From Agrobacterium sp. AGB01 (GTDB taxonomy: Bacteria > Pseudomonadota > Alphaproteobacteria > Rhizobiales > Rhizobiaceae), in the NCBI RefSeq assembly GCF_014851585.1, contig NZ_JACVAB010000008.1, positions 62,001 to 126,000 of the forward strand: a stretch of 64,000 nt of DNA, given 5' to 3'. Position numbers and translations under genes: made by a program. Shown here in pieces: positions 53,000-64,000 of this stretch; positions within the stretch are counted from its first letter, which is position 1, and every line of letters begins with the position of its first letter. The notes under the pieces are model-generated. The model was not told the DNA's origin and did no database searches. It saw nothing but the letters and a program-made list of their open reading frames with translations.

Positions 53000-53503
53000 A
53001 CCATTCCTGACAGGTAGCTGAATGTCGGTAGATGACGTCGTTTCTTACATTTTGCCGGCTAAAGTCAGTTGCAACAGTGCGCCTGTACGCGATGGCAGGG
53101 CCAATACATTGCCGCCATGCAGTGCAGGTTCGATGGACAGTTGGTGTGCCGTTGCCAGTTGACGGTGTCGGTAGGAGCAGGACTGCACTGACAAGGACAA
53201 ACAGTCTAAGCGTCAGGAACGAAAAGAAATTTCGTCGCGTTAAGGCGTGGACGCAAAAATGAGCGGTAATAATCGCCACCTGCAATGTTGTTGCAATGCG
53301 CAGCAATCAATGTGGTGGTCCGGTTTCTGACTGTGCACCGTTCACCGGCATGCGGGGGTCCTCCAGTCTCCATGCCGGTGGATGGTGCATGTGCGATTCA
53401 GTTGTCGTTTCATTGTTGTCTTGATGTCGTTCAGGCGTCGTTCATGGGCGCAACGGCAAATGTCGAAGCGACCGCCACCCTTCTGCCCGTAATGGAGCCT
53501 TGT
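53000..53503. other. Intergenic region upstream of the efflux pump
   Basis: This 500-base gap between the phosphatase and the RND pump holds no supported gene. It contains a candidate operator at 53429-53445 close to the pump start and probably carries the pump's promoter. Frames running through it have no family resemblance. Confidence 0.5.
53429..53445 (+). promoter_or_regulatory. Direct-repeat motif GTTCAG-N5-GTTCAT, possible OmpR-type operator
   Basis: Two half-sites GTTCAG and GTTCAT are separated by GCGTC, giving the same architecture as the motif at 8853. It lies about 60-75 bases upstream of the efflux adaptor start at 53504. A two-component regulator may control the pump here; which one is not known. 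Confidence 0.4.
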
Positions 53504-54631
53504 ATGAAACCCACCCGAACAGCCCTTTTCGCGGCATTGCTGATCCCTTCGCTGGCCGTGGCCGGTCCGGCATTGTCACAAACGCCAGAGGCGCCCGCCG
53601 GTACACCAGCAAGTACGGCGTCGGGTGCTGCCGCTGGTAAGGTGGAGCTGGCCGGTGTTGACGTGACAACCGTTGCCGCCCGTAACCTGGGCAGTGAAGT
53701 GCGTGTGTCCGGTTCGTTGACACCCATCCGGCGCACCAGCCTGACAGCGCGGGTTGCCGGCACCATTACCGAATTGCCGGTGCAGATTGGCGATGTGGTG
53801 AAAAAGGGTGACCTTCTGGTGCGCATCGACACCGAGGGTCTGGCCTCGGCGCTGACGGCCCGCAATGCCGAGGTGGAAGCGGTTGAGGCGCAGCTGGAGC
53901 TTGCTGAAAATGTGCTTGCCCGCAATGTCAGCCTGCGCGATACCGGCGCGACATCAGAGGCGGTGCGGCTGGAGGCCAATGCCAATGTGCTGAACCTGAA
54001 GGCGCAGTTGCGTGCCAAACAGGCCGCCGTTGCCGATGCCGAGAGAGCCTTGAGTGACGCGCAGGTGCATGCCGCGTTCGATGGCGTGGTATCGGCGCGG
54101 CCAGTGGAACAGGGCCAGACGGTGCCGGTGAATGGTGAGCTTTTGACCATTGTCGATCTGCGCCGCATGGAGGTGGATGCCGGGGTGCCGACCAGCCGTA
54201 TTCCGCGTGTGCGTATTGGCCAGCCGGTGGAACTGACAGTTGAAGGTTTCTCGGACCGCAAATTTACCGGCGAAGTCACTCGCATTGCGCCCACGGCAGT
54301 CGCAGGCTCCCGGGCGGTGCGTGTGTTCATTGCCATAGACAATGACGACATGCTGCTGAAGGGTGGCATGTTCACCACGGGTGTTCTCAGCATTGACCAG
54401 CAGGACAATGTCATTGCCGTGCCGATTGCTGCCGTGCGCCACGATGCCACCGGCACTTTTGTGCTGAAGGTCGAGGACGGCTATCTGCGCCGCCAGGATG
54501 TGAAACTTGGTACCACATGGAATGATCAGAACCTGGTCGAGATCAATGGGCTGAGCTCGGGCGAAGTGGTGGTGTCTGCGCCGTTGCCGCAGCTGGTGGC
54601 TGATACGCCCGTGACCGTGGTGGGGAAATAA
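53504..54631 (+). CDS. RND efflux periplasmic adaptor subunit
   Basis: This 375-residue membrane fusion protein has a signal peptide ([21 protein letters not shown]), then the HlyD/MFP core [42 protein letters not shown], a helical hairpin, and a beta-barrel with [27 protein letters not shown]. It links the inner-membrane pump to an outer-membrane channel. GGAG lies 6 bases before ATG 53504. The permease gene starts 4 bases after its stop. Confidence 0.9.
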
Positions 54632-54635
54632 GCCG

Positions 54636-57600
54636 ATGTTCCTTACCCGCGTCAGCGTCAAACATCCGGTTTTTGCCACCATGATGATGGTGACGGTGCT
54701 CGTCATCGGGCTGTTTTCCTACAGCCGCCTTGGTGTCGACCAGTTTCCGGAAACCGATCTTCCCATCGTTGTGGTAACCGCCGCTTATACCGGCGCGTCG
54801 CCGGAAACGGTGGAAAGCGAAATTGCCCGCCCCATTGAATCCGCGCTGAACACCATTGGCGGTATCGATACGATTACCTCGGAATCCTATGAGGGTCGCG
54901 CCGTTGTGGTGGTGCAGTTCCAGCTGGATGTGGACTCGCAGGCCGCAGCGCAGGAGGTGCGTGACCGTGTTGCCCGCCTGCAGGCCGGTTTCCCTGACGC
55001 GGTTGATACACCGCAGGTTACCCGCTTCAACCCGGAGGATGCGCCAATCCTGTCTTTGGCGGTCTCCTCCTCCACACGCACGCTGTCGGAAATCACCACG
55101 CTTGCCGACCGGGTCATTACCAGCCGCCTCAACATCATTGCCGGTGTTGGCCAGATTACGCTTGTTGGCGGCAGTGAGCGGCAGATGCTTGTCGTGGTCG
55201 ATCCTGACCGGCTGGAAGCCTATGGTGTCGGCGTCGCCTCTGTCATGGATGCCATTCGCCGTGAAAATCAGGACCGTGCCGCCGGTACGCTGATTTCCGG
55301 TATCAACCAGCGCATTGTCACCGTTGAGGGACGTATTGAAAATACCGCCGGGTTCAACAGCATCATTGTCGCGCAAAGCGGCGGTTACCCGGTCTATCTG
55401 TCTGACGTGGCAACAGTGCTGGATACCGGTGCCGAAGTCACCAGCCGCGCCACCTATCAGGGCGTGCCATCGCTTGGCATGGATATCGTCAAGGTGCAGG
55501 GCGCCAATACGGTGGCGGTGGCCGGTGATTTGCGCAGCGAGATCGAGACGCTGAACACCGAGCTGAAGGCCGAGGGTGTGGAACTGACCATTACCCGCGA
55601 CAATTCCCGCGCCATTGCCGCGCAGGTGTCTGAAGTGCAGAGAACGCTGATCGAAGGCGGCGTGCTGACCGTGGTCATCGTATTCCTGTTTCTCAATTCC
55701 TGGCGCTCCACCGTCATCACCGGGCTGACGCTGCCGATCTCTGTTATCGGTACCTTTGCGGTGATTTATGCGCTGGGCTTTACGCTCAACACCATGACGC
55801 TGATGGCGCTGTCGCTGTCGATCGGTATTTTGATCGATGACGCGATTGTGGTGCGTGAAAACATCACCCGCCATTTGCAAATGGGCAAGGACCATGTGCG
55901 TGCGGCACTTGATGGTACCAATGAGATTGGCCTTGCCGTGCTGGCCACCACTTTGTGTATCGTTGCCGTGTTTTTGCCAGTTGCCTTCATGGGCGGGTTG
56001 ATTGGCCGGTTCTTCCTGCAATTTGGCGTGACCGTTGCCGTGGCGGTGCTGATTTCGCTGTTCGTGTCCTTCACGCTCGACCCGATGCTTTCCAGCGTCT
56101 GGTATGATCCGGATTCGGAAAAGAACGCCAAGCGCGGGCCGCTTGGCCGCTTGATCCATCGGTTCGATGTCTGGTTTGAAAAGCTGGCAGATCGCTACCG
56201 CAAGCTGATCCACTGGACGTTTGGCCACCGCAAGACAACCATTGGCATTGTGGTTGGCATGTTTGTCGCCAGCCTGATGCTGGTGCCGAAAATCGGTGCC
56301 GAGTTCCTGCCGGTCACTGACCAGGGTGAAGTGTCTGTTTCACTTGAAGCCAATCAGGGTGCGTCGCTGGAATATATGGCCGCCAAGGTTGGGCAGGTTG
56401 AAAATGCGCTGCGTGAATTCGATTATGTCGACACGATCTATTCCACCATCAATGCCAGCGGTGCGCGTGGTTTCAACCAGGCCAATGTTGCCGTGCAGCT
56501 GGTGCCCAATGACCAGCGCGAAATCAGGACGTCGGAATCGCTGGAGCCGGTTCGCCAGCGTCTGGCCCTAATTGCCGGATTGAAAGTTTCGGTCAGCCAG
56601 TCGGAAGGTGGTGCGACCGCCAAACCGTTGCAGCTTTCCGTGCTGGGGGATGGTGACGAGCAGTTGCGCAAGATTTCAAGCCAGATCACCACGGCCCTGT
56701 CGGCCATTCCTGGTGCGACGGAAGTGGAATCCTCGATTGAAAATGAGCGCCCTACCCTTGCCGTCAAGGTGCGGCGTGAAGCGGCCAGCGACCTTGGCGT
56801 GTCTATATCGATGATTGGTGACACGCTGCGGCCACTGGTGGCGGGTGATGCCGTCTCGGTATGGAATGCGCCTGACGGTGAAACCTATGATGTGATGGTG
56901 CGCCTGCCGGCCAAGGGACGACAGGACGCTGCCCAGCTTCGCAACCTGACGATTTCCACCAACCGCACCGATGAGGACGGCAAGCCGATTACCGTGCTGC
57001 TCGATCAGGTCGCCGATGTCGTTGAAAGCACCGCGCCTGATGCGATTACCCGCAAGGACCTGTCGCGTGAAATCCGCATTTCCAGCAATGTCGAGGGACG
57101 TCCGCTGGGTGATGTACGGCAGGATCTGGATGCAGCGATTGCCAAGATGGATATTCCAGCCGGTTACCGCGTGTCGTTTGGCGGTGACGTGCAGAGCCTG
57201 AATGAAAGCATGGGGTATGCCGTGCAGGCCTTGGTACTGGCGGTGATCTTCATCTACATCATTCTGGCGTCGCAGTTTGGCTCGTTCATCCAGCCGATTG
57301 CCATCATGATGACCCTGCCCCTGTCGCTGATCGGGGTGCTGATCGGCCTTCTGGCCACCGGATCGACCCTGAACATGTTTTCGATCATCGGTTTCATCAT
57401 GCTGATGGGTCTTGTGACCAAGAACGCCATTCTGCTGGTCGATTATTCAAACCATGAGCGGCGGGACGGAAAGTCGTTGCAGGAAAGTCTGGCCAATGCC
57501 GGTGCCGTGCGTCTGCGCCCCATTGTCATGACAACGCTGGCGATGATTTTCGGCATGTTGCCCATGGCCATCGGCATCGGTGAAGGCGGAGAATCCCGTG

Positions 57601-57761
57601 CGCCAATGGCCCATGCGGTGATTGGTGGTCTGATTTCGTCGACGCTGCTGACGCTGGTTTTTGTGCCTGTTGTGCTGACCTACCTTGATGCATTCAGCCG
57701 TCGTTTGTCGGCGCTGTTTCCCAAGGGGCCGGACCATCAGGCGGCAGAAAAATCCCTGTAA
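54636..57761 (+). CDS. RND multidrug efflux permease (AcrB family)
   Basis: This 1041-residue proton-driven pump has the typical twelve-helix architecture with two large periplasmic loops. The N-terminal [36 protein letters not shown] is classic, [20 protein letters not shown] holds the proton-relay aspartates in helix 4, and [21 protein letters not shown] holds the lysine in helix 10. No outer-membrane channel gene is adjacent. It follows the adaptor as an operon and is the main drug or toxin exporter here. Confidence 0.95.
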
Positions 57762-57896: not shown

Positions 57897-58598
57897 TCAG
57901 CCCTTTACGATGATCTTGGCGCCCGGCGTGACGCGCTCATAGAGGTCCATCACGTCCTGGTTCATCAAGCGAATGCAGCCGGCCGATACTCCCTTGCCGA
58001 TGGAGCTTGGATCATTGGTGCCGTGGACACGGTAATAGGTGTCCTTGTTGTCCTTGTGCATGTAAAGCGCGCGTGCACCCATGGGGTTTTTCGGGCCGCC
58101 ATCCACGCCGTCCTTGTGCGGGCCGTAATGGGCAGGGTTTCTCTTGACCATCTCAGGGGTTGGGATCCAGCGCGGCCATGCGGCCTTTCTGGCAATGATG
58201 GCCTCGCCGCCGTCAAAGGAGCGCGCGACCGGGCCAACACCAACGGCGTAACGGATGGCCTTGTTGCCGGGCTGGATCAGATAAAGGAAACGGCTGTTCT
58301 GATCGACGATGATCGTGCCGGGCTTTTCTTCCGATGGATAGCTGACGACCTGACGCACATATTGCGGGTTCAGCTTCTGCACATCGATGGCGGGAATTTC
58401 AAAACCGCCATCGGTTCTGGCCGCATACATTTGCACCGGGTCACTGCCGACAGATTTCAATGCGTCGTCTTCGGCGCGTTGCTTGGCAAGCTGTGGCGTT
58501 GGCGCGGAACTGCCGTCGCCTGTGCTGGCACATGCCGACAGCAGCAGGGGCAGCGCAATCGCCAACGCGTTGCGAGGAGAGAAGAAAACACGAATCAT
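57897..58598 (-). CDS. L,D-transpeptidase (YkuD domain)
   Basis: This 233-residue protein has a lipoprotein signal (ALAIALPLLLSACAS) and a YkuD domain. The active site HGTNDPSSIGKGVSAGCIRLMNQDVMDLYERV provides His, Cys and Arg. It cross-links peptidoglycan by 3-3 bonds or attaches proteins to it. A PmrA/QseB-type box lies 55-71 bases upstream of its start, suggesting control by the neighbouring two-component system. Confidence 0.9.
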   Translation of the reverse strand: MIRVFFSPRNALAIALPLLLSACASTGDGSSAPTPQLAKQRAEDDALKSVGSDPVQMYAARTDGGFEIPAIDVQKLNPQYVRQVVSYPSEEKPGTIIVDQNSRFLYLIQPGNKAIRYAVGVGPVARSFDGGEAIIARKAAWPRWIPTPEMVKRNPAHYGPHKDGVDGGPKNPMGARALYMHKDNKDTYYRVHGTNDPSSIGKGVSAGCIRLMNQDVMDLYERVTPGAKIIVKG

Positions 58599-58652
58599 GG
58601 GGGGCCTGCCTAATGCGGATTGGAACTTTCCACGCTTGGCTGACGCCCTCAC

Positions 58653-58669
58653 CTTAACACTGCCTTAAG
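58653..58669. promoter_or_regulatory. PmrA/QseB-type box in the L,D-transpeptidase promoter
   Basis: CTTAAC-N5-CTTAAG fits the YTTAA-K tandem with one mismatch; the spacer is ACTGC. The stretch lies just upstream of the minus-strand transpeptidase. A perfect match lies at 60779-60795. Confidence 0.55.
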
Positions 58670-58700
58670 ATTGGTAAAACTAACGCAGCTGTGAACAGCT

Positions 58701-60062
58701 TCATTCGCCCGGTAGTGTCAAAACGACAACGAAGCCAGTCGCCACTGCGCGAAAATCCAGCCTGCCGCCCAGCTTTTTCATGGCCATGTCGACAATGGCC
58801 AGGCCAAGGCCGCTGCCATCAGCCGTTGGGGCGTGGCCGCGCTTGAACCGTTGACGCACACTGGCTTGATCTTCCACGGCAATGCCCTGCCCGCGATCGA
58901 TGACCTCGATCTGCATAGCGGCATCAGTGGTTTGAAGGCGGATGGTGACACTGCTGTCCTGCGGCGCATATTGAATGGCATTTTCAATGACATTGCGCAG
59001 CGCCAGACGCAGCAGGTTGATGTTCCGGACCACCACGTCCTGTTGCTGCGGCAGGTCATATTCCAGTGACACGGAACGTTTGCTGCTTAATCCTTCGAGG
59101 TCGCAGCGGATGTCCTCCAGCACCCGGTCAAGGCGTGCTACCTCAACCTCGTCGCCACGGTCGGCGGAATCGACCGAGGCAAGGTCGATCAACTGACGGA
59201 CAAGGCGGCCGGTTCTATCGACGCTGGTCGAGATATGCGCCAGTGCCTTGTTTCTGACGTCCTCCTCATGGCTTTTCAGCGCCACCTGTGCCTGGGTTTT
59301 CAGACCCGCCAGCGGTGTCTTCAGCTCATGGGCGGCATAGGCGATGAAGGATTTTTCGCGCTCACGCGCTTCCTCAACCCGCAGGAACAGCGAGTTCAGC
59401 GACTTGAGCAGCGGCTTGATTTCGCTTGGCGCATCCTTCTGCTCAATGGCGTGCAACTCGTCGGCGGTGCGCATGCCCAGCAGAGCGGCGATGCGGTTGA
59501 GCGGTCCCAACCCCTTGCCGACACTGAACCAGATCAACAGCGCAAGGATTGGCAACATGGCAACGGCTGGCACCAGCTGGCCCTTGACCACATCGGCCAC
59601 CAGCCGGTCGCGGATTTCAAGACTGTCACCAATCAGCACCCGCACATTGAGGCTGGTATTGACCACGGCAAATACCCGCCAGCGCACGCCATCCACTGTC
59701 GTTTCGCTAAAACCGCTGGTGTTGTCGGTCAACGCATCATCCGGCGCACTGGCCGAGCGGCTGACCAACTTGCCCTGCAACGACCAGATCTGGCAGGACA
59801 GCTGCCGGCGGTAATCGCCCTGCAGTTCAAAAGATGTGTCTGCGTCACTGGCCTTGGTCTCATCGATGGCGGCGGCAACATCGATATGGTGATCGGTGAT
59901 CAGTGAACTGACCATGCGGGCGGCTTCCATCAACCGTGCATCCAGCACCCGTTCTACCTGATGCTGAACGCTGAAATAGGTCCACAGCACCGCAAACAGC
60001 CACACGGCACCCGTGGTGGCGAGCAGAATGGAAAACAACCGAAGACGTATCGAGCGCATCAC
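58701..60062 (-). CDS. Sensor histidine kinase, QseC/PmrB-like
   Basis: This 453-residue kinase has an N-terminal helix (RLRLFSILLATTGAVWLFAVLW), a periplasmic domain of about 130 residues, a second helix near residue 165 (VAMLPILALLIWF), a HAMP-like linker and the H-box FIAYAAHELKTPLAGLKTQ. N, G1 and G2 boxes follow at RNVIENAIQYAPQ, VIDRGQGIAVED and TADGSGLGLAIVDMA. Overlap with the regulator gene is 4 bases. The stimulus is unknown; the family responds to metals, adrenergic compounds or low pH. Confidence 0.9.
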   Translation of the reverse strand: MMRSIRLRLFSILLATTGAVWLFAVLWTYFSVQHQVERVLDARLMEAARMVSSLITDHHIDVAAAIDETKASDADTSFELQGDYRRQLSCQIWSLQGKLVSRSASAPDDALTDNTSGFSETTVDGVRWRVFAVVNTSLNVRVLIGDSLEIRDRLVADVVKGQLVPAVAMLPILALLIWFSVGKGLGPLNRIAALLGMRTADELHAIEQKDAPSEIKPLLKSLNSLFLRVEEAREREKSFIAYAAHELKTPLAGLKTQAQVALKSHEEDVRNKALAHISTSVDRTGRLVRQLIDLASVDSADRGDEVEVARLDRVLEDIRCDLEGLSSKRSVSLEYDLPQQQDVVVRNINLLRLALRNVIENAIQYAPQDSSVTIRLQTTDAAMQIEVIDRGQGIAVEDQASVRQRFKRGHAPTADGSGLGLAIVDMAMKKLGGRLDFRAVATGFVVVLTLPGE

Positions 60063-60718
60063 CCCATCCCCAGCCGGTAACCGACGCCACGCACCGTCTC
60101 GATGACCGACGTGCCCAGCTTGGCGCGCAGCTTGTGCACATGCACCTCGATGGTGTTGCTCTCGACATCTTCCTGCCAGCCATAAAGCCGCTCTTCCAGC
60201 GCCTGTTTGGAATGGATGGCCTGCGGGCTTTCCATCAGGGCATGCAGAATGGAAAATTCCCGCCGCGACAGGCCAATCTCCACCTCAGCGCGGCGCACCA
60301 GCATTGAGGCCGGATCAAGCGTCAGGCCACGCAGGCTGATCTCGGCGCTGGCGCGGCCGCTAGAGCGACGGGTAATGGCGCGCAGGCGTGCGGCCACCTC
60401 ATCCAGATCAAAGGGTTTGCCGATATAGTCATCGGCACCGGCATCCAGACCATCAATGCGGTCGCCCACCTCGTCCTTGGCGGTCAATAACAGCACGGGA
60501 ATGCGGTTTCCGGCCTGGCGAATGCCGCGCAGCACATCCAGCCCCGACCCATCCGGCAACATTCTGTCGAGGACAACGGCATCAAAACGCCCGGTTTCCA
60601 GAGCCTCGGTGGCGTCGGCTACCGTGGTCACGCCATCGGCCACAAAACCGCTGAGTTTGAGGCCTTCGCGCAGGCCATCCAGCAGGATCGGGTCATCTTC
60701 GACAACAAGTATTCGCAA
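60059..60718 (-). CDS. Response regulator, QseB/PmrA family
   Basis: This 219-residue OmpR-type regulator has a receiver domain (ILVVEDDPILLDGLREGL; phosphoacceptor in AVVLDRMLPDGSGLDVLR; IGKPFDLDE) and a winged helix ending SKQALEERLYGWQEDVESNTIEVHVHKLRAKLG and TVRGVGYRLG, the QseB/PmrA hallmark. The TTG at 60718 has GGAG 8 bases upstream and starts the usual MRILVVEDD. A CTTAAG-N5-CTTAAG box lies just upstream, so it likely autoregulates and also drives the divergent dsbD operon. Confidence 0.92.
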   Translation of the reverse strand: MRILVVEDDPILLDGLREGLKLSGFVADGVTTVADATEALETGRFDAVVLDRMLPDGSGLDVLRGIRQAGNRIPVLLLTAKDEVGDRIDGLDAGADDYIGKPFDLDEVAARLRAITRRSSGRASAEISLRGLTLDPASMLVRRAEVEIGLSRREFSILHALMESPQAIHSKQALEERLYGWQEDVESNTIEVHVHKLRAKLGTSVIETVRGVGYRLGMG

Positions 60719-60778
60719 GTCACGTCTCCGCAAGCGGTCTATTCAACATTTCGTCCGGATTTTTAGTCCGATTTTCAC

Positions 60779-60795
60779 CTTAAGGCTGCCTTAAG
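60779..60795. promoter_or_regulatory. PmrA/QseB-type box between regulator and dsbD
   Basis: CTTAAG-GCTGC-CTTAAG is a perfect tandem of the PmrA/QseB consensus. It lies 61 bases upstream of the TTG start of the regulator and 53 bases before dsbD, so one site can serve both divergent units. Confidence 0.65.
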
Positions 60796-60847
60796 CTGCC
60801 GGTCGGATCAGTCCTGATAACAAAATGTAGACGAAAGGACATGGTGG

Positions 60848-62725
60848 ATGCGCATATTGGCGTTCACGTTTGCGATGCTGACGCTGGTCGGCATGACGCT
60901 GGCTGGCGTTGTCACGCCAGCCGTGGCAACGCAAACACCGCTTGAAATGGATCAGGCCTTCAAGGTGTCCGTGGAGCAGGCAGCGGATAATCGCGCCGTG
61001 ATCCGCTGGACCATCAATGACGGTTATTATCTGTACCGCGACTACCTCAGCGCCGAAGACAGCGCCGGAAACAAGCTGGAGCTGCAGACCCTGCCCGGCA
61101 AGGTCAAGGATGATCCGAATTTCGGCTCGACCGAGGTTTATTACGCCACCGCAACGGCTTCGGTGCTCAACGCACCACAGACATTTCGGCTGACCTATCA
61201 GGGCTGCCAGGAAGACGGCCTGTGTTACCCGCCAACGACCAAAATAGTGGATATGGCAACATTGTCACTTGCTGGTGATAACGCTGGTAAGGGCCTGTTT
61301 TCACAGGGTGGATTTGCAGCCGCAGCCAAGGCATCGAACGCTTTTTCCAGCGCTGCGAGCACCGGTAATGCCACTGATCGCCCTGATGACAATGGCAGTT
61401 TTACGCTGGCGGATGAACATGCCGAAACCGCCATCGACCGTATGCTCAGTGATGGCGGCTTGGCCCTTTTGCTGGCCGGGTTTCTGGGGTTTGGCGTGCT
61501 GCTGGCCTTCACGCCCTGCGTTTTTCCGATGTATCCGATCGTTGCGGCCATGTTGGCCCGCGAGGGGGAAGACCTGACGGCACGACGTGGTTTTACCCTG
61601 TCATCGGCCTATGTGCTGGCACTGGCCTGCGCCTTCGGGCTGCTTGGCATGGTCGCGGCATGGTCTGGACAAAATCTGCAGGTGGCGTTGCAGAGCACGA
61701 CCACGGTGGCGGCCATTGCCATTCTGTTTGTGGTGCTGGCGCTGTCGAATTTCGGTCTGTTCCATTTGCAGCTACCGGCCTTTATCTCGGCGCGGTTCAG
61801 CAAGGGTAAAACAAGGGCCGGCACCGTGCCAGGCGCCATGGCGCTTGGGTTTTCCTCGGCGCTGTTGATTGGTCCCTGTGTGACGGCACCTTTGGCCGGG
61901 GCGCTGCTTTACATTGCCCGCACCGGTGACATTGCCATTGGAGCGGCCGCGCTGTTTGCGCTGGGGCTTGGCAAGGGCATTCCACTTGTGATCATGGCGA
62001 CAGCCAGCGGCAAGGCTTTGCCAAAGGCCGGCCTATGGATGGAAAAGGTGCGCCAGATCTTCGGTTTCCTGTTTCTGGCAACCGCGCTGTGGCTGGCGAC
62101 ACCGCTTATGCCGCAACCCCTCGTGTTGCTGGGCTGGGCCGTGCTGGCGCTGTCCTTCGGGGTGTTTGCCTTTACCGCCGCAAGCGGCACCACCGGTTCC
62201 GGTTTCAGCGTGATCTCGCGTAGTGCCGGTCTGGCATCGATCATCTGGGCAGCCCTGCTATTTGTCGGTCTCGGCCTTGGTGCGAATGATCCGCTGGCGC
62301 CGCTTAAGCCGCTGCTATCAGGTAATGGTCCGCAGGCCGTGGCCAGAATAGAGAAGTCGGACTTTGCCAAGGTCGGTTCGCTGGGGGATCTTCAAAACCG
62401 TATCGCGTCTTCGCCGGGCAATGAGCCGACACTCGTTTATGTCACCGCCGACTGGTGCGTGACCTGCCGCACCATTGAACGTTCGCTGCTGACCAGTCCA
62501 GACGTTGTCGACGCGCTTGGCAAGGTCAACCTTGTCAGTCTCGACCTGACGCAGCTAAACGACGACAAACAGGCCATGCTGTCGGCGCTTGGGGTTATCG
62601 GTCCACCGACCATGGTCTTTCTCGACGCCAAACGCCGCGAACCGGCGGCAACCCGGCTGGTCGGCGAATTTTCCACCAGTGATCTGGCGGCCTCTGCCCG
62701 CAAGGCACGGGAGGACAGTCTTTGA
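60848..62725 (+). CDS. dsbD: Thiol:disulfide interchange protein DsbD
   Basis: This 625-residue protein passes electrons from cytoplasmic thioredoxin to periplasmic thiol proteins. The N-terminal alpha domain shows TYQGCQEDGLCYPPTTK with two cysteines. The membrane part shows LAFTPCVFPMYPI and ALLIGPCVTAPLAGALLY. The C-terminal gamma domain shows YVTADWCVTCRTIERSL. All six redox cysteines are present. It is followed by two periplasmic thiol enzymes in the same direction. Confidence 0.94.
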   Translation: MRILAFTFAMLTLVGMTLAGVVTPAVATQTPLEMDQAFKVSVEQAADNRAVIRWTINDGYYLYRDYLSAEDSAGNKLELQTLPGKVKDDPNFGSTEVYYATATASVLNAPQTFRLTYQGCQEDGLCYPPTTKIVDMATLSLAGDNAGKGLFSQGGFAAAAKASNAFSSAASTGNATDRPDDNGSFTLADEHAETAIDRMLSDGGLALLLAGFLGFGVLLAFTPCVFPMYPIVAAMLAREGEDLTARRGFTLSSAYVLALACAFGLLGMVAAWSGQNLQVALQSTTTVAAIAILFVVLALSNFGLFHLQLPAFISARFSKGKTRAGTVPGAMALGFSSALLIGPCVTAPLAGALLYIARTGDIAIGAAALFALGLGKGIPLVIMATASGKALPKAGLWMEKVRQIFGFLFLATALWLATPLMPQPLVLLGWAVLALSFGVFAFTAASGTTGSGFSVISRSAGLASIIWAALLFVGLGLGANDPLAPLKPLLSGNGPQAVARIEKSDFAKVGSLGDLQNRIASSPGNEPTLVYVTADWCVTCRTIERSLLTSPDVVDALGKVNLVSLDLTQLNDDKQAMLSALGVIGPPTMVFLDAKRREPAATRLVGEFSTSDLAASARKAREDSL

Positions 62726-62776: not shown

Positions 62777-63388
62777 ATGTTGTCACGTCGTGATGTCTTG
62801 GCAGTCGGGCTTGCGACTGTCGCAGGTCTGACTTTGTTTAGCGCAGACGATAGCGCCGCTGCGCAAATGAGCACGAAGGAGATATTCTTTGACAAGGATG
62901 CACCGGTGCTTGGCAACCCCAAGGGTTCGGTGACGGTGGTCGAATATTTCGACTATCAGTGCCCCTATTGCAAAAGCTCACATGCCGCCTTGAAAAAGGT
63001 GGTGGCCGCCGATGGCGATGTGCGGCTGGTGCTGAAAGACTGGCCGATCCTCGGCGATGCCTCGGTTTTTGCCGCGCAGGCGGTGCTGGGGGCAGCACAG
63101 ATTGGCCACTATGAACCGGCCATGGAAGCGCTGATGAAAACCAGAGGACGCCTGTCGCAAAGTCAGGTTGAAAAGGCACTGGCCGGTGTGGGCCTGACGA
63201 TGGAAATGCTGTCTGCCGCCGTCAATGAAAACAACAGCAAGATCTCCGCATTGCTGGATCGTAATTACAGCCAGGCCCTGTCGTTCAATTTTGTCGGCAC
63301 GCCATCCTTTGTCATTGGCAAGGATGTCTATCCCGGTGTTCTCAGTGAAAAGGCACTGAAAGACGCCATCAAACTGGCGCGTGCCTGA
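62777..63388 (+). CDS. DsbA-family thioredoxin-fold protein, Tat-type signal
   Basis: This 203-residue protein has a twin-arginine-like signal (LSRRDVLAVGLATVAGL) and a thioredoxin fold with YFDYQCPYCKSSHAAL, the CPYC active site, and the cis-proline region FVGTPSFVIG. It could oxidise or isomerise disulfides in the periplasm, working with DsbD. AAGGAG precedes the ATG. It follows dsbD by about 50 bases. Confidence 0.9.
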   Translation: MLSRRDVLAVGLATVAGLTLFSADDSAAAQMSTKEIFFDKDAPVLGNPKGSVTVVEYFDYQCPYCKSSHAALKKVVAADGDVRLVLKDWPILGDASVFAAQAVLGAAQIGHYEPAMEALMKTRGRLSQSQVEKALAGVGLTMEMLSAAVNENNSKISALLDRNYSQALSFNFVGTPSFVIGKDVYPGVLSEKALKDAIKLARA

Positions 63389-63437: not shown

Positions 63438-64000
63438 ATGTCCCGTTTCTCCCTTACCCGCCATCTCATTGCTGTCACCTGCGCGCTTGGCCTCTTGTCA
63501 GCCCTGCCCGCCCGTGCCGAAGACAAGGCGGATCTACCGCCAATCCTGCGCACCATTGAGGGTCAGGGCATCACCATCCTCGGTGAAATGAAGGTGCCGG
63601 GCGGCCTGCGGGCCTTTGCCGCCAAGGCCGGTTCACAGCCGCTTGCCATTTATCTGACGCCAGACAATGAACATGTGGTGGTTGGCACGCTGGTTGATGG
63701 TTCCGGTCAGGACATGGCCGAAACGCAGCTGAAGGAAATGGTCGAAAAGCCGATCATGGAAGATGGCTGGAAACAGCTGGAACAATCCGCCTGGGTGGCG
63801 GATGGCAAGGCCGATGCACCGCGCATTGTTTATACCTTCACCGACCCCAACTGCCCCTACTGCAACAAGTTCTGGCAGGCCGCACGGCCATGGATCGATA
63901 GCGGTAAGGTGCAACTGCGCCACATCATGGTTGGTGTGATCCGGCAGGATTCGCCGGCCAAGGCAGCCGCCATTCTCGAGGCCAAGTCGCCATCTGAGGC
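63438..64000 (+). CDS. dsbG: DsbG/DsbC-like thiol:disulfide protein, 5' part
   Basis: This frame runs off the window end after about 187 residues. It starts with a signal peptide (HLIAVTCALGLLSALPARAED), a DsbC/G-type dimerisation region, and then IVYTFTDPNCPYCNKFWQAARPW with a CPYC active site. VGTLVDGSGQDM is also typical of DsbG. It likely works with DsbD to keep cysteines reduced. The C-terminal part lies beyond the window. Confidence 0.85.
   Translation, partial: MSRFSLTRHLIAVTCALGLLSALPARAEDKADLPPILRTIEGQGITILGEMKVPGGLRAFAAKAGSQPLAIYLTPDNEHVVVGTLVDGSGQDMAETQLKEMVEKPIMEDGWKQLEQSAWVADGKADAPRIVYTFTDPNCPYCNKFWQAARPWIDSGKVQLRHIMVGVIRQDSPAKAAAILEAKSPSE

Follow-up and report, generated by a model that had tools for sequence, protein, structure and literature searches.

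In Pseudomonas aeruginosa, the copper-responsive DsbRS system induces dsbDEG, according to the available parts of three articles (PMC10141476, PMC9233671, PMC11195947), and DsbRS homologues in P. fluorescens are reported in the accessible part of another (PMC13101516). BqsR of P. aeruginosa responds to ferrous iron and has the site TTAAG-N6-TTAAG; DsbD and DsbG are not mentioned in the accessible part of the article describing it (PMC4682146). In Escherichia coli, DsbG, which is kept reduced by DsbD, shields the single essential cysteine of transpeptidases from sulfenylation (Depuydt et al. 2009, as described in the available part of PMC3526765). L,D-transpeptidases (LDTs) are inhibited by copper according to the accessible part of PMC8263019.

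The locus analysed here contains a two-component system, dsbD and an LDT gene, and was proposed in a sequence-only reading to form one regulon of the PmrA/QseB family. We compared it with the described systems by following its regulatory box, its kinase and its regulator through related genomes.

Gene organization and boxes of the locus

In the window, i.e. the whole stretch of 64,000 nt analysed, the regulator–kinase pair adjoins dsbD and diverges from it (Table 1), and this arrangement is shared with P. aeruginosa DsbRS. The dsbG gene runs beyond the window end (its product has 266 aa in locus L206), and a further CxxC-motif gene, DsbA-like by eye, lies downstream of it outside the window. 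The LDT appears to be a lipoprotein when translated from the ATG at 58598. It has two cysteines only, one in a lipobox recognized by eye (LLSAC) and the catalytic one (SAGCIRL).

The sequence-only reading had described an exact CTTAAG-N5-CTTAAG between the regulator gene and dsbD, a one-mismatch copy ahead of the LDT gene and a QseB/PmrA-type peptide at the C-terminus of the regulator. Both boxes are where it placed them, and the peptide occurs in the regulator translation. The box ahead of the LDT gene is weaker than the one at dsbD. One of its half-sites is mismatched, its spacer reads GCAGT towards the LDT gene, and 54 bases separate it from the probable start codon. Its credibility comes mostly from relatives that share the gene order (L046, L047, L052, L053) and in which a box is kept at this position.

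Table 1 Features of the locus (positions in the window)
Feature	Position	Strand	Basis or remark
L,D-transpeptidase (LDT, YkuD)	57897..58598	-	ORF and PF03734; start = internal ATG at 58598 (probable)
One-mismatch box CTTAAC-ACTGC-CTTAAG (CTTAACACTGCCTTAAG)	58653..58669	.	putative, weaker operator for DsbR ahead of the LDT gene
Sensor histidine kinase (proposed DsbS)	58701..60062	-	2CSK_N sensor domain, Cys90 in RQLSCQIW
OmpR-type response regulator (proposed DsbR)	60059..60733	-	ORF, Pfam, NCBIfam, tree
Exact box CTTAAG-GCTGC-CTTAAG (CTTAAGGCTGCCTTAAG)	60779..60795	.	putative operator for DsbR, in the gap from which dsbRS and dsbD diverge
dsbD, protein-disulfide reductase	60848..62725	+	PF02683, PF11412; NCBIfam DsbD 460 vs cut-off 330
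DsbA-family protein (CPYC)	62777..63388	+	PF01323, PF13462
dsbG, gene start	63438..64000	+	NCBIfam DsbG 253 bits vs cut-off 124, in-window part

The two nearest named loci of the cluster are from Agrobacterium. A regulator at least 68% identical was found in 10 of the 37 genomes of the genus sample and relatives of the cluster were found on plasmids; the cluster is patchy in its distribution and probably mobile.

Two observations concern the surroundings of the cluster. In the Agrobacterium plasmid pAtK224b (L127), it is carried on a 200 kb replicon with recombinases nearby and lies between sulfide genes and genes for copper handling (a P-type ATPase, a multicopper oxidase and nirK). In the window, an RND pump (53285-57761) adjoins the LDT gene without a box of its own. 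The pump was ruled out as a regulon member because no box lies ahead of it in the window, and neither of its genes (adaptor and transporter) was matched at E 1e-15 among the 80 named loci.

Occurrence of the box in related genomes

The window and its genome alone were insufficient for judging the significance of the box. At up to two mismatches, 0.74 matches are expected in the window; two were found, and 17 of 100 shuffles equalled that number. The genome of 5.62 Mb contains one exact site and four sites at up to one mismatch, two of which are in the window. The other two lie inside a gene recognized by eye as waaA-like and beside one recognized by eye as mutL-like. They were treated as chance matches and not as operators, since several would be expected at the frequency of the control stretches (1 site per 0.8 Mb). 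The reversed pattern has a different base preference (217 places in the window's genome vs 46 for the box at up to two mismatches) and was for this reason rejected as a background. It was also present in many genomes of the family, so that a lone exact box in a single genome proves little.

The box was therefore searched for in other genomes irrespective of the genes present. Among 199 genomes of the family sample, 50 contained the exact CTTAAG-N5-CTTAAG and 33 the kinase at a threshold of 1e-70; the exact box was found in all 33 kinase-bearing genomes vs 17 of the 166 kinase-less ones (Fisher 2e-25). Sites are listed for 15 of these 17: eleven have other spacers only, and a C[T/A]G spacer occurs in four (G256, G320, G323, G338). 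The box precedes an LDT gene in G320 and G233, both kinase-less at 1e-70, where a more distant regulator may be at work. In the order sample (150 genomes), the refined box CTTAAG-NCTGN-CTTAAG was found in 8 genomes at 10 sites, i.e. in 8 of 10 kinase-bearing vs 0 of 140 kinase-less genomes (Fisher 9e-12). All 10 sites, including that of the window, lie beside genes for the response regulator (RR), dsbD, DsbG, DsbA or LDT. The refined box was not found in the kinase-bearing order genomes G135 and G160.

These two scans relied on the motif only, whereas a further set of 80 named loci, 56 after the removal of 24 for dsbD similarity, was collected via dsbD. A box with at most two mismatches was present within 450 bp upstream of dsbD in 78 of the 80 loci, and in 73 it was exact; none was found in that interval in L111 and L120, the latter sequence starting at the gene itself. 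With up to one mismatch, 85 boxes were counted in the 56 system loci (0.72 Mb) and a single one in the 40 control stretches (0.80 Mb).

The spacer distinguishes sites beside system genes from others. Among the matches listed for loci L129-L205, 85 distinct exact sites (identical 60-base flanks collapsed) fell into 58 whose spacer core is C[T/A]G and 27 with other spacers. A system gene adjoins 54 of the 58 vs 6 of the 27, as judged by a simple ORF picker that misses genes. The four C[T/A]G sites at which no neighbour was labelled are in L179 (two), L176 and L196; one of those in L179 is the same site as in L163, where tblastn does show DsbD and RR.

The counts in the window and in its own genome, taken alone, would agree with the boxes being chance or compositional matches. 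Such an origin has a negligible probability, however: the co-occurrence of box and kinase gene in the two motif-based scans already refuted it, and the position of the C[T/A]G sites beside system genes, the exact boxes at dsbD and the near absence of boxes from the control stretches point the same way. The comparative data settle that the box is more than chance.

Footprint and orientation of the box

The footprint was derived from 53 dsbD promoters, which remained of the 73 with an exact box after 20 had been removed for flank similarity. Their spacer is NCTGN, with C in 52, T in 51 and G in 51 of the 53 promoters. The second base past the box is T in 46/53, and the twelfth is A in all 53 (L046-L125), in divergent surrounding sequence. 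The box centre often lies 50-60 bp ahead of the ORF start given by simple ORF calls.

Among the sites found by motif, CTG is directed towards dsbD on 27/27 DsbD-facing sides and towards LDT on only 8/28 LDT-facing ones. Twelve bases beyond the box, the A is found on 23/27 DsbD, 15/20 RR, 4/28 LDT and 3/9 DsbA sides. This A might be a promoter element and the spacer CTG a part of the -35 element; we leave this as an idea, since the A holds on the DsbD and RR sides and fails on those of LDT and DsbA.

Classification of the regulator and the kinase

The best NCBIfam models were PmrA (215 bits vs cut-off 330) and QseB (208 vs 345) for the regulator and QseC (244.9 vs 475) for the kinase. The names PmrA, QseB and QseC do not apply because these scores are under the curated cut-offs. 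The system resembles enterobacterial PmrAB/QseBC in the class of its regulator and in the domain order of its kinase with 2CSK_N; it differs from them in falling under the cut-offs and in having a sensor-domain cysteine in place of a phenylalanine. This cysteine, Cys90, is the only one in the sensor domain and was kept in all 59 readable rows (of 60). QseC-like kinases and alphaproteobacterial paralogues not tied to dsb genes have Phe or Tyr at this position where it is readable.

In the kinase tree, 33 cysteine-bearing rows were split from 20 other rows, with E. coli QseC outside the cysteine-bearing group, by a branch with support of 97/98. The cysteine-bearing group includes Pseudomonas-like kinases (genus inferred) of three genomes (L224, L231, L236), and this grouping is a further likeness to P. 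aeruginosa DsbRS. Counted from a GTG start, their cysteine is residue 82; in the original DsbRS study, Cys82 of DsbS is said to bind copper. The Pseudomonas-like kinase of L236 adjoins dsbD. The regulator tree placed the dsb-linked alphaproteobacterial regulators in one group (98/91, 30 rows), and an alphaproteobacterial group not tied to dsb joins them (96/85) before the Pseudomonas-like regulators do.

The PmrA box is of the same shape class as CTTAAG-N5-CTTAAG. The alphaproteobacterial box also contains TTA-N8-TTAA, which was reportedly given as the DsbR site in the original study. TTAA repeats occur in the regulator-dsbD gap of Pseudomonas-like loci as well: L231 and L236 have GGTTAATCATCGGTTAATC there, and no such repeat was found in the part of the gap covered in L224. 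The CTTAAG half-sites and the NCTGN spacer are, in contrast to P. aeruginosa DsbRS, features of the alphaproteobacterial box. The pentamer pair and its spacing are the same as in the BqsR site as given in the accessible part of PMC4682146.

The model scores and the shape of the box, which is that of the PmrA and BqsR sites (the latter from the accessible part of its description), could indicate a true PmrAB or QseBC system, i.e. an envelope or quorum-type regulator with dsbD and LDT only incidentally in its regulon. We regard this as very unlikely in view of scores that are well under the cut-offs and of the single group of cysteine-bearing kinases, which leaves out E. coli QseC. The family label of the sequence-only reading can thus be kept in part: the regulator resembles PmrA and QseB, and the box has the shape of the BqsR site, but the curated names are not reached and the kinase group stands apart from QseC.

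The most suitable label for the system is alphaproteobacterial DsbRS and not PmrA/QseB, as suggested by the shared kinase cysteine, the common group with Pseudomonas-like kinases and the known induction of dsbDEG by DsbRS. This filing carries the reservation that the dsb-unlinked alphaproteobacterial group lies between the alphaproteobacterial and the Pseudomonas-like DsbR in the regulator tree.

L,D-transpeptidase and other putative targets

Boxes at LDT genes, and at DsbA genes in alphaproteobacterial loci, are a difference from P. aeruginosa DsbRS. Many LDT boxes lie in divergent promoters common to dsbD or RR. They could therefore be relics or by-products of shared promoters, with DsbRS controlling dsbRS and dsbD only; the different direction of CTG and the rarity of the A at position 12 on the LDT sides, as well as the mismatched half-site of the window LDT box, are in line with this. 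On the other hand, the LDT boxes of L145, L146, L147, L155, L169, L171, L177 and L182 have no labelled system gene opposite, and in G201, G301 and G369 (one genus) the box-bearing LDT gene is on another contig than the kinase gene. We thus consider a regulon restricted to dsbRS and dsbD unlikely and retain LDT as a putative member. YkuD matches number 13 in G201, 14 in G301, 17 in G369 and 15 in the window's genome, and among the last only the LDT of this locus has a nearby box (at most one mismatch).

In open-licence literature, we found no report of an LDT as a member of a DsbRS regulon, which is a weak negative since the search covered this literature only. The word 'transpeptidase' was not found in the available parts of the three texts on Pseudomonas DsbRS in which it was looked for. 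The LDT branch appears to be the new part of the regulon, and it would fit the protection of LDTs by DsbG and their inhibition by copper reported for other bacteria. One regulon joining disulfide repair and cell-wall crosslinking, as the sequence-only reading proposed, is strongly supported as a prediction by the motif, its co-occurrence with the kinase, the gene order and the recurrence in many genera.

Other boxed genes and an additional kinase were seen in a few loci. A box lies about 80 bp before an oxidase gene in two genomes, in L168 (position 6786; COX1 by Pfam) and L205 (position 15997; similar start). Two boxes, at positions 272 and 361 of L192, lie ahead of a gene for a DUF882/M15 peptidase; the genome concerned, G312, gave no kinase match at 1e-70. 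A second, longer DsbS-like kinase of about 540 aa by simple ORF calls is encoded beside LDT genes in L169 (10279-11901), L171 (6352-7977) and L190 (2972-4606), with no regulator called alongside.

Genes for copper and sulfur compounds near the loci

Copper genes showed no enrichment near the system loci (3 of 56 after dereplication vs 1 of 40 control stretches). Genes for sulfide and persulfide (Blh, BigR, TauE, YeeE, SQR) were near 11 of the 56 loci (L059, L062, L082, L083, L085, L092, L098, L107, L108, L121, L123; also L127:9899-13149) vs 0 of 40 controls (Fisher 0.0017); with a looser dereplication cut, the counts were 16/78 vs 0/20. This association is a lead only, since the queries were themselves genes of such loci and the controls belonged to genomes other than those of the named loci. 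It is possible, but rather doubtful, that alphaproteobacterial DsbRS senses reactive sulfur or general thiol damage through Cys90, and not mainly copper, that its regulon couples LDT supply to DsbD-DsbG thiol repair, and that some lineages add a heme-copper oxidase and a wall peptidase.

Discussion

DsbRS-dsbDEG of P. aeruginosa has already been described, reportedly by Yu et al. (2022, Sci. Bull. 67:198-212). The alphaproteobacterial pair is of this known kind.

We consider it likely that the locus encodes a DsbRS system with a regulon of its own. DsbS would sense thiol-active periplasmic stress through the single cysteine of its sensor domain. Copper would be the first candidate for the signal because of the Pseudomonas precedent. 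Phosphorylated DsbR would then bind CTTAAG-N5-CTTAAG and activate its own operon dsbRS, the LDT gene, and dsbD together with the downstream dsbA and dsbG. In this way, periplasmic reducing power would be rebuilt from DsbD to DsbG, and an LDT would be supplied whose one catalytic cysteine is of the type that DsbG protects and copper inhibits. Production of an LDT together with its repair system would be a coherent response, given the protection by DsbG, the inhibition by copper and the single cysteine outside the lipobox. The observations made here are the sequences, their conservation and co-occurrence and the trees; DNA binding, activation and the signal are predictions, and the protection of LDTs by DsbG, their inhibition by copper and the copper response of DsbRS are taken from work on other bacteria.

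Several findings count against the DsbRS reading: the order of groups in the regulator tree, the 17 kinase-less family genomes with an exact box, the lack of the refined box in G135 and G160, the A missing at position 12 on most LDT sides and the copper genes not being enriched.

For the recognition of such systems, kinase Cys90 together with CTTAAG-NCTGN-CTTAAG would pick out DsbRS among systems resembling QseBC and PmrAB, and would also point to their targets. The same three enzyme types are involved as in the protection of LDTs by DsbD and DsbG in E. coli, which is a relation at the protein level in the available part of the source (PMC3526765); in the loci studied here, a common operator seems to be a further tie, between the genes. 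The partners known from E. coli biochemistry, in which DsbG keeps LDTs working, thus appear under one regulator and one operator. This apparent wiring spans many alphaproteobacterial genera, and a connection of redox damage in the periplasm with crosslinking of the cell wall becomes directly testable.
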